DNA from: Thermomucor indicae-seudaticae
Taxonomy: Eukaryota > Mucoromycota > Mucoromycetes > Mucorales > Lichtheimiaceae
DNA length: 64,000 bases
Assembly: GCA_000787465.1 (NCBI GenBank)
Contig: JSYX01000003.1
Span: 62,001 to 126,000 of the forward strand
Reading direction: 5' to 3'
This document shows positions 11,847 to 15,799 of the stretch, piece by piece. The translations under genes were made by a program, and so were the position numbers. The notes beneath the pieces were generated by a model. That model saw nothing but the letters and a program-made list of their open reading frames with translations, was not told where the DNA came from and searched no databases. Position 1 is the first letter of the stretch. Each line of letters opens with the position of its first letter.

Positions 11847-13581
<1,735 letters not shown>

Positions 13582-13716: not shown

Positions 13717-15799
13717 ATGACCAATGATCTACTCATCATCAGCACGCTGATAAAGTTACTGCTGATACCCGCCTAGTGAGTACGATCAGCCCACGCCTCT
13801 ACTGCTCTTGTTATTCATCAGAACCTGTAGTCGATCGACTGATTTCGAGGTGCATCGGAACTGGTTAGCCATCACGTACAGTCTGCCGATCCACAAGTGG
13901 TATACAGAGGTAGAGTAAGAAGTAACGCACGCAACACAGAGCCTGCGCGTGTATACATAAATGATAATTTTTATAGAACACGTCTATCTGGACATTGGAT
14001 TATCCGCCGTTTTTCGCATGGTTCGAAAAGGCCTGGAGCCTCGTGGCCCAATATGTGGATCCAGCCATGCTGATCGTCGATAACTTGGAGTACGCGAGTC
14101 AGGCGACCGTCGTCTTTCAGCGCTGCACCGTCATTGCGAGCGAGCTCGTCCTCTACTGGTCGCTCCGCCGTTATCAACGCTACTTTGGCAGCCAGTATCT
14201 GCATGCACTCGTCGCTGGTTCCATCTTGCTCCATCCGGGACTACTGATCGTGGATCATATCCTTTCTTCTTTATATAACATCTTTACATAACAACGAAAA
14301 CGACTCTCCTTGACTCGCTCCTTCTTCTTTACATATTCACTTTCAATACAATGGGCTTCTTTATGGCATCCTTGTGTTGTCTATCGTTGAAGCCAAACGC
14401 GTAAGCCCAATTCGAAAAAAGCTTTTCGTCATCATGGTCACTGAACGCTTTCTTTTTTTTTAAACAGGGCCAATTACTGCTGTCCGGCATTTTATTTGCA
14501 GTCCTCCTCAACTTTAAGCACATCTATCTCTACATGGCGCCCGCTTACTTTGCCTATCTCTTGAAAGCCTATTGCTTCACTCAAGGTATAACATACGCAC
14601 TTTTTATCTCTTTCCAGATACTGAAACAGAAAGAAAGGCACCCGTTTTTCCTTGCAACGCCTTGTGGCACTGGGCGGATCCGTCGCTACGATCTTCGTCA
14701 TTTCTCTAGGACCTTTTCTGCACCAATGGCATGCCCTGCTGGGTCGACTTTTCCCATTCACCCGAGGACTGTGCCATGCTTACTGGGCTCCGAACTTTTG
14801 GGCCCTGTACGCAGCTGCCGACCGATGCCTTATCCTATGTAAGCTATACCAACAACTCACAACAAGATGCGCACTAAGTACTCGTATCGAAAGTGGCAAG
14901 ACGGCTAGGTTGGGAACTCCAGAACGAAGCCGCGGTTGGCTCCATGACGCGTGGATATGTGGGCGACACCCAGTTTGCTATTCTGCCCAATATCGAGGCG
15001 ATCCACACGATGATCATTACACTGATTGTCCAGTTGGTAAATCGTTACAAAAGAACAAGACCTGCGCGGCTTGTCACTCACGGATACAAAGGATATATAG
15101 CTTGTTCTGCAACGGGTCTGGAGAAAACCAAGCTTTGAAAACTTTTTGTCTTGTCTGACACTATGTGGATTTGCATCCTTCTTGTTTGGATGGCACGTTC
15201 ATGAGAAAGCCATCCTGATCGTGTTGATACCGTACAGGTAATCATGACGATGCTTGCTGGTCAAGAAAGAAAGCGATTCTAAAGAGCCTTTCTCGTCTAG
15301 CTTCATGGCCAGCCAAAGCAAGCTGCATCTGCGTGCATTCACGATCCTCAGCGCTGCAGGCATCTATTCGCTTTATCCTCTCTTGTTCCATCCGGCGGGT
15401 AAAAAAATCGCATAACGCGAATTGATACATTGCGCGCTCTAAAAGGATAAAGTAGAGACACCCATCAAGATCCTATTCACGCTGCTTTGGTGCGTCATCA
15501 CCGTCCCCGGTCTGGCGGCCTGTCTACAAATGTAAAGTAAAAATCACACAAAGAGCTTGTCCATCCCGTCCGTCTGACGTTTGAGATTGGATAGACCTCT
15601 CAAGGGTTTACTGCAACCCCTCGACATGGCTTACCTACTCGGACTCGTGGGAATCCAAATGTACACCAGCACCATGCATCCAGTCCTATTCGGTGCCAAC
15701 CGCTTGGAATTCTTACCACTTCTTTTGACCAGTGTCTATTGTGCGATGGGTATCATGTATGGATGGGCCATGGCCATGTACGCCTATCTGTCTCAATAA
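13717..15799 (+). CDS. ALG8: Dolichyl-P-Glc:Glc1Man9GlcNAc2-PP-dolichol alpha-1,3-glucosyltransferase
   Basis: Eleven exons: 13717-13775, 13831-13909, 13977-14256, 14333-14400, 14468-14585, 14638-14838, 14894-15036, 15101-15237, 15301-15398, 15456-15531, 15595-15799, giving 487 residues. ALG8 adds the second glucose to the lipid-linked oligosaccharide in the ER lumen before N-glycan transfer. Diagnostic motifs are [51 protein letters not shown] and [16 protein letters not shown]; many hydrophobic segments fit a polytopic ER enzyme. HIHFQYNG, the feature that unites ALG6 and ALG8, is only restored if intron 3 is removed as an AT-AC intron. Intron 7 ends at the AG before 15101, not at later AGs, giving [15 protein letters not shown]. 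Confidence 0.95.
14257..14332 (+). other. U12-type AT-AC intron within ALG8
   Basis: The 76-base intron starts ATATCCTTT, the exact U12 donor consensus, and ends TTTAC. TCCTTGAC at 14307-14314 matches the U12 branch consensus, with the branch A 20 bases before the next exon. There is no AG between donor and the required acceptor, so no GT-AG alternative keeps the conserved motif. Confidence 0.88.

Follow-up and report, generated by a model that had tools for sequence, protein, structure and literature searches.

Within a window of 64,000 nt (C3:62001-126000 of a 24.77 Mb genome in 735 contigs), a gene resembling ALG8 is interrupted by a short stretch that begins with AT and ends with AC, raising the question of whether this stretch is an intron of the minor, U12-dependent spliceosome and, if so, what company it keeps in the genome. 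The gene was modeled as follows, with exon boundaries picked by frame and likeness to ALG8, the start of exon 6 being the least certain:

13717-15799, + strand: predicted ALG8 gene, 11 predicted exons encoding 482 aa, from frame and ALG8 resemblance
13717-13775, 13831-13909, 13977-14256, 14333-14400, 14468-14585, and 14638-14838, + strand: ALG8 exons 1-6
14909-15036, 15101-15237, 15301-15398, 15456-15531, and 15595-15799, + strand: ALG8 exons 7-11

The predicted product, named as dolichyl-P-Glc: Glc1Man9GlcNAc2-PP-dolichol alpha-1,3-glucosyltransferase, matched PF03155 (Pfam) at 551.5 bits over residues 10-474 of its 482 aa, which makes the initial assignment to ALG8 firm. Its closest proteins, at 72-75% identity, were one unnamed protein and then those of Dichotomocladium, Zychaea, and Fennellomyces, all members of the Lichtheimiaceae (Mucorales), and the nearest relatives carried the names ALG8 or GT57, as expected for an ALG8 (GT57) enzyme. 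The fungus thus probably belongs to that family or is closely related to it. A search of NCBIfam returned no family for the protein. The glucosyltransferase structure 6SNH/6SNI, which we take to be ALG6, aligned to residues 23-258. Protein-kinase-like exons were noted by eye upstream of ALG8 on the + strand (window 12500-13580), with DLKPEN- and GTPDYL-like stretches.

The interrupting stretch carries the following features:

14257-14332, + strand: U12-type AT-AC intron by its signals, ALG8 intron 3, 76 nt, phase 1
14257-14265, + strand: U12 donor ATATCCTTT (5' splice site), with complementarity to AAAAAGGG at the 5' end of U11 and to AAAGGAGAG of U6atac
14307-14314, + strand: branch site TCCTTGAC, whose branch A (14313) lies 19 nt ahead of the end of the intron
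14330-14332, + strand: 3' splice site TAC (AC terminus), the intron closing TTTAC

The letters are as the initial annotation had given them, with ATATCCTTT at 14257, TCCTTGAC at 14307-14314, and TTTAC running to 14332. The donor agrees with the U12 pattern [AG]TATCCTT and the branch site, near the 3' splice site, with TCCTTRAC; TCCTTGAC can also pair with GTAAGGA of the U12 candidate described below. The reported lack of any AG between donor and acceptor was borne out, and 14257-14332 is free of GT as well. Joining 14256 to 14333 restored the conserved ALG8 motif, including HIHFQYNG, in phase 1, and excision thus gives a known protein with PF03155 over residues 10-474. This had been called the only join that keeps the frame, which held among GT/GC-AG alternatives: when each GT or GC at 14200-14299 was tried as a donor with every AG lying 40 nt or more beyond it, as far as 14379, none of the joins kept ALG8 open and in frame. 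Other AC acceptors, up to some 30 nt past the branch site, were compared by open-frame length alone, and TTTAC was the best by that measure.

Neither signal is unusual by itself. The window has 5 copies of RTATCCTT where 2.9 would be expected, and 44 of TTCCTTRAC with at most one mismatch where 29.8 would be. The donor-branch pair at a gap of 22-52 was found once in the window and in none of 100 dinucleotide-shuffled versions, and the same pair across the whole 24.8 Mb genome gave 20 matches compared with none in the backward control.

From what is established about the minor spliceosome, U11 would pair with AUCCUUU of the donor and U12 with UCCUUGAC, leaving the branch A bulged; U6atac would then displace U11 from the donor, with the intron excised between 14256 and 14333. 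If the intron were retained, ALG8 would run into a stop codon, so the step that adds the second glucose to the N-glycan precursor would require minor splicing.

The initial annotation had also held that such an intron implies working minor-spliceosome machinery, and the genome supports this. U11 scored 73.1 bits (Rfam cut-off 39) and U6atac, on contig C101, 48.2 bits (cut-off 33); none of 14 prokaryote control genomes rose above the cut-off for either RNA, with weak U6atac matches at E up to 1 appearing in 8 of the 14. The 59K protein PDCD7 was matched in two places, at 40.5 and 39.2 bits (cut-off 27). A genome devoid of minor-spliceosome RNAs or proteins, which would have spoken against the intron, is therefore not what we observed. 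The U12 candidate (L064, C129:50426-50563, minus strand) fell below its cut-off of 53, with 32.6 bits and E 0.00104 (RF00007). At E up to 10 the U12 model gave matches in 7 of the 14 controls, none above the cut-off. The candidate retains the branch-pairing GUAAGGA as well as GAGTAAGGA and GAGUAAGGA, and an Sm-like stretch, AATTTTTT / AAUUUUUU. The U4atac candidate (L005, C618:7819-7939, minus strand) was weak, with 25.2 bits against a cut-off of 53 and E 0.3; its tail reads GCAATTTTTGGAA / GCAAUUUUUGGAA, and its 5' part formed a duplex with U6atac no better than shuffled sequences did (817 of 2000 paired at least as well). Duplexes of 6-7 bp with the intron consensus, counted with no shuffle control, can be drawn for the U11 5' end (AAAAAGGG), U6atac (AAAGGAGAG), and the U12 candidate (GUAAGGA). 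Two other candidates were rejected: L002 as a second U6atac, at 20 bits and below the cut-off, and the matches to the U12 pattern GAGTAAGGAAAATAAC at 2 mismatches or fewer, which numbered 19 against 33 in the backward control and included no U12 among the 8 scanned with Rfam. L064 itself diverges from GAGTAAGGAAAATAAC after GTAAGGA.

A 14-mer, AAAAAAGAAAATGA, is common to three of these RNA loci, lying 7 nt downstream of U6atac, 45 nt downstream of the U12 candidate, and 19 nt downstream of the U4atac candidate:

L001 (contig C101), 1648: AAAAAAGAAAATGA after U6atac
L064 (contig C129), 1683, minus strand: AAAAAAGAAAATGA after the U12 candidate
L005 (contig C618), 1640, minus strand: AAAAAAGAAAATGA after the U4atac candidate

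We found no other copy in 280 kb (the window plus 81 loci, some overlapping, both strands). U11 has a looser and shorter version, CGAAAATGAT, about 15 nt downstream. As an independent sign, the 14-mer speaks for the U12 and U4atac candidates being genuine snRNA genes; it may act in fungal snRNA genes as a 3'-end or termination element. Boxes resembling GGTATAAA(A/T) were also seen upstream of the RNA start, at -29 in the U4atac candidate, -42 in the U12 candidate, and -102 in U6atac. The weak U12 and U4atac scores fit the order, since similar gaps have been reported for Lichtheimia (divergent U12, missing U4atac; PMC4133162) and Apophysomyces (U6atac reported without U12 or U4atac; PMC5604411). 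CENATAC, which is required for AT-AN minor introns in human cells (PMC8280824), gave no match in a genome search with PF14968, for which no power is claimed, so its absence does not follow.

Protein models of relatives bear on the position of the intron. The ALG8 motif was unbroken in 112 of the 120 listed relatives; the species concerned either have the intron annotated or lack it, two states that look alike in protein models. Among the 8 in which it was not intact, five Mucorales models were broken at or across the junction between VD and H: those of Zychaea and Fennellomyces are without VDHIHFQ, and in Circinella, Mucor velutinosus, and Spinellus a foreign or missing stretch stops directly before the H of H(I/M)HFQYN. 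The Blyttiomyces model reads as if translation had continued into the ATATCCTT donor, at C|ATATCCTTTC. The other two are P0040, which stops short upstream, and P0045, from which a larger region is missing. Mucor and Spinellus are presumably Mucorales and Blyttiomyces presumably a chytrid. The Mucorales models break as if they shared an intron that gene predictors miss, and in the public ALG8 models P0003, P0004, P0007, P0023, P0025, and P0108, from five Mucorales and a chytrid, HIHFQYNG is probably annotated wrongly. We also considered whether the intron predates the split of ALG6 and ALG8. This idea found no support because an ALG6-like paralogue on contig C708 is without U12 signals (neither [AG]TATC[CT]T nor TCCTT[AG]A in 2.4 kb of the + strand) and its frames suggest an intron placed differently, between HFQ and YN. 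That paralogue was detected by weak matches (E 1e-5 and 0.007) and named by likeness to the chain aligned with 6SNH/6SNI.

Taken together, the signals, the restored frame, and the machinery indicate that 14257-14332 is almost certainly a minor-spliceosome (U12-dependent) AT-AC intron in ALG8 of a Mucorales-like fungus, and very likely that it is removed by a working minor spliceosome. AT-AC introns removed by the major spliceosome do exist (type II; PMC7072748), and such an intron would combine AT-AC ends with a U2-type donor and branch site. Here the donor matches the U12 consensus in full, the branch site fits TCCTTRAC, and the pair is missing from every shuffle; the other nine ALG8 introns all start with GTA or GTG and end with AG, and minor snRNAs are present in the genome, so we regard major-spliceosome removal as highly improbable. 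Equally, a stretch that is never spliced, whether in a pseudogene or through an assembly or sequencing error, would be hard to square with a 482-aa reading frame that is otherwise open and matches PF03155 over almost its whole length, with the same signals at 28 other places, 10 of them inside a Pfam domain, and with the Mucorales models that break at or across the same junction; we give this explanation almost no weight.

A GT-AG intron at slightly shifted coordinates, as some public models assume, would yield proteins like those modeled in Zychaea and Fennellomyces, from which VDHIHFQ is missing. A shifted intron is nevertheless barely credible: the stretch here contains no AG, the range tried yielded no GT/GC-AG join that keeps the frame, and the residues such a deletion would take out are intact in 112 of the 120 listed relatives. 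The U12-dependent AT-AC intron accordingly stands as our reading of the locus.

To see what other introns of this kind the genome may hold, we scanned it for RTATCCTT-N-TCCTTRAC at gaps of 22-52, 53-83, and 84-114. The strict donor-branch pattern gave 20, 15, and 7 matches, respectively, for a total of 42, with none in the backward control at any range. As read, these comprised 29 AT-AC introns (ALG8 and 28 more), 4 GT-AG minor introns, and 9 chance matches. Those beginning with A were read with AC acceptors in all 20 cases at gap 22-52 and in 9 at gap 53-83. The GT-AG candidates were:

L056: prefoldin-like, Pfam match above cut-off across the join
L071: PP2C, Pfam match above cut-off across the join
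L070: cullin-like, Pfam match below cut-off
L061: no domain

When all 29 AT-AC candidates were scanned, 11 had a Pfam match above cut-off across the join:

First six: ALG8, MIOS, VPS11, an Ion_trans channel, ChAPs, and a GT22 mannosyltransferase
Other five: Gaa1, prefoldin, DCP2, LSM12, and NF-YB

The other 18 have signals and open frames only (L012, L015, L019, and others match no family), and for candidates without Pfam support the acceptor was the analyst's choice. Two candidates, L008 and L017, fall within or next to Ion_trans domains in one or two cation-channel-like genes; animal members of this family are known to carry minor introns.

Features left free by the pattern were consistent across the set. 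Position +9 was T in 20 of 20 matches at gap 22-52 and in all 29 AT-AC candidates kept, and in 30 of 32 when every A-type match was counted, three dropped ones included; position +10 was T in 25 of 29. Between the branch site and the AC there was no AG in 23 of the 29, and the chosen AC was the first YAC past the branch site in 26. Thirteen candidates were in phase 1, 8 in phase 2, and 8 in phase 0, and retention would disrupt the frame in 28 of 29. The nine matches dropped as chance or coding were L053, L057, L062, and L063 (gap 53-83) and L065-L069 (gap 84-114), a judgement made by eye on frames and splice signals, with L065-L069 viewed around the match only. The frame of L062 is open straight through the match, and both L057 and L062 are A-type with G at +9. 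Because 9 of the 22 matches at gaps 53-114 read as chance despite a control of zero, the backward control sets the background too low, and chance may account for a few of the 29 AT-AC candidates as well.

An AT-AC minor intron here is of the expected kind, since minor introns are already known from Mucorales; their occurrence in early-diverging fungi such as Rhizopus, cited in the initial annotation, has been published, as it has for Phycomyces (PMC2846911, PMC10639083). The skew is the unexpected part and is more useful than the single intron. By strict DNA pattern across the whole genome, AT-AC outnumbers GT-AG 29:4, a ratio from a pattern that may miss weaker GT-AG introns and whose gap ranges longer ones fall beyond; the GT-AG candidates are the longer (97-130 nt against 67-98 nt for AT-AC). 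Under the 5' rule, Phycomyces blakesleeanus has 8 AT-AC introns against 8 or 10 GT-AG (PMC2846911), from which 29:4 differs with Fisher P 0.010 (8:8) or 0.002 (8:10). Restricting the comparison to domain-supported cases (11:2 against 8:10) gave P 0.03. The AT-AC share is 8-26% in animals and plants with minor introns and 47% in Drosophila (PMC7367187, Table 2), and it reaches 77% in Blastocystis (196 of 253 minor introns; PMC10639083). The AT-AC excess is thus unusual, yet has a precedent.

One possible account, which we offer tentatively and would not favor over its alternatives, is that the minor spliceosome of this Mucorales lineage is nearly restricted to AT-AC introns, its GT-AG minor introns having been lost or turned into major ones, and that the ALG8 intron is stranded, ancient, and perhaps shared with chytrids. 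AT-AC introns would have stayed behind because they are poorly recognised by the major spliceosome. If so, what keeps a second spliceosome in place would be a last set of substrates that cannot be converted. The ALG8 intron itself adds one more well-supported case and suggests that several Mucorales ALG8 models are wrong at a conserved motif, and the ratio of about 29 AT-AC to 4 GT-AG candidates in a compact fungal genome provides ground for comparing intron positions across Mucorales. The fungus could become a tractable system for AT-AC splicing, in which the fate of CENATAC would be informative. In the literature covered, we found no report of a minor intron in ALG8 or of an AT-AC-dominated set in Mucorales; this is weak evidence of novelty because supplements were not covered and a 2023 survey of minor introns took in Mucor lusitanicus (PMC10639083).

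Several known systems resemble the one described here, each in part. Rhizopus oryzae and Phycomyces blakesleeanus are likewise Mucorales with AT-AC and GT-AG minor introns and minor snRNAs, but the Phycomyces counts are near-even (8:8 or 8:10) and come from ESTs, whereas 29:4 comes from a strict DNA pattern (PMC2846911). In the part of the Lichtheimia corymbifera report that deals with these RNAs, U12 is unusual, no U4atac was found, and the second half of U6atac has diverged, much as in our genome; that part lists RNAs, whereas here there are introns too and a 3' sequence common to U6atac and the U12 and U4atac candidates (PMC4133162). Rhizophagus irregularis, another early-diverging fungus, has all four minor snRNAs reported and, unlike this genome, 205 minor introns, far above the count here (PMC10639083). 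Blastocystis shares the strong AT-AC excess, but it is a stramenopile with very short introns, 49% of them in phase 0, whereas phase 1 is the commonest here (13 of 29) (PMC10639083).
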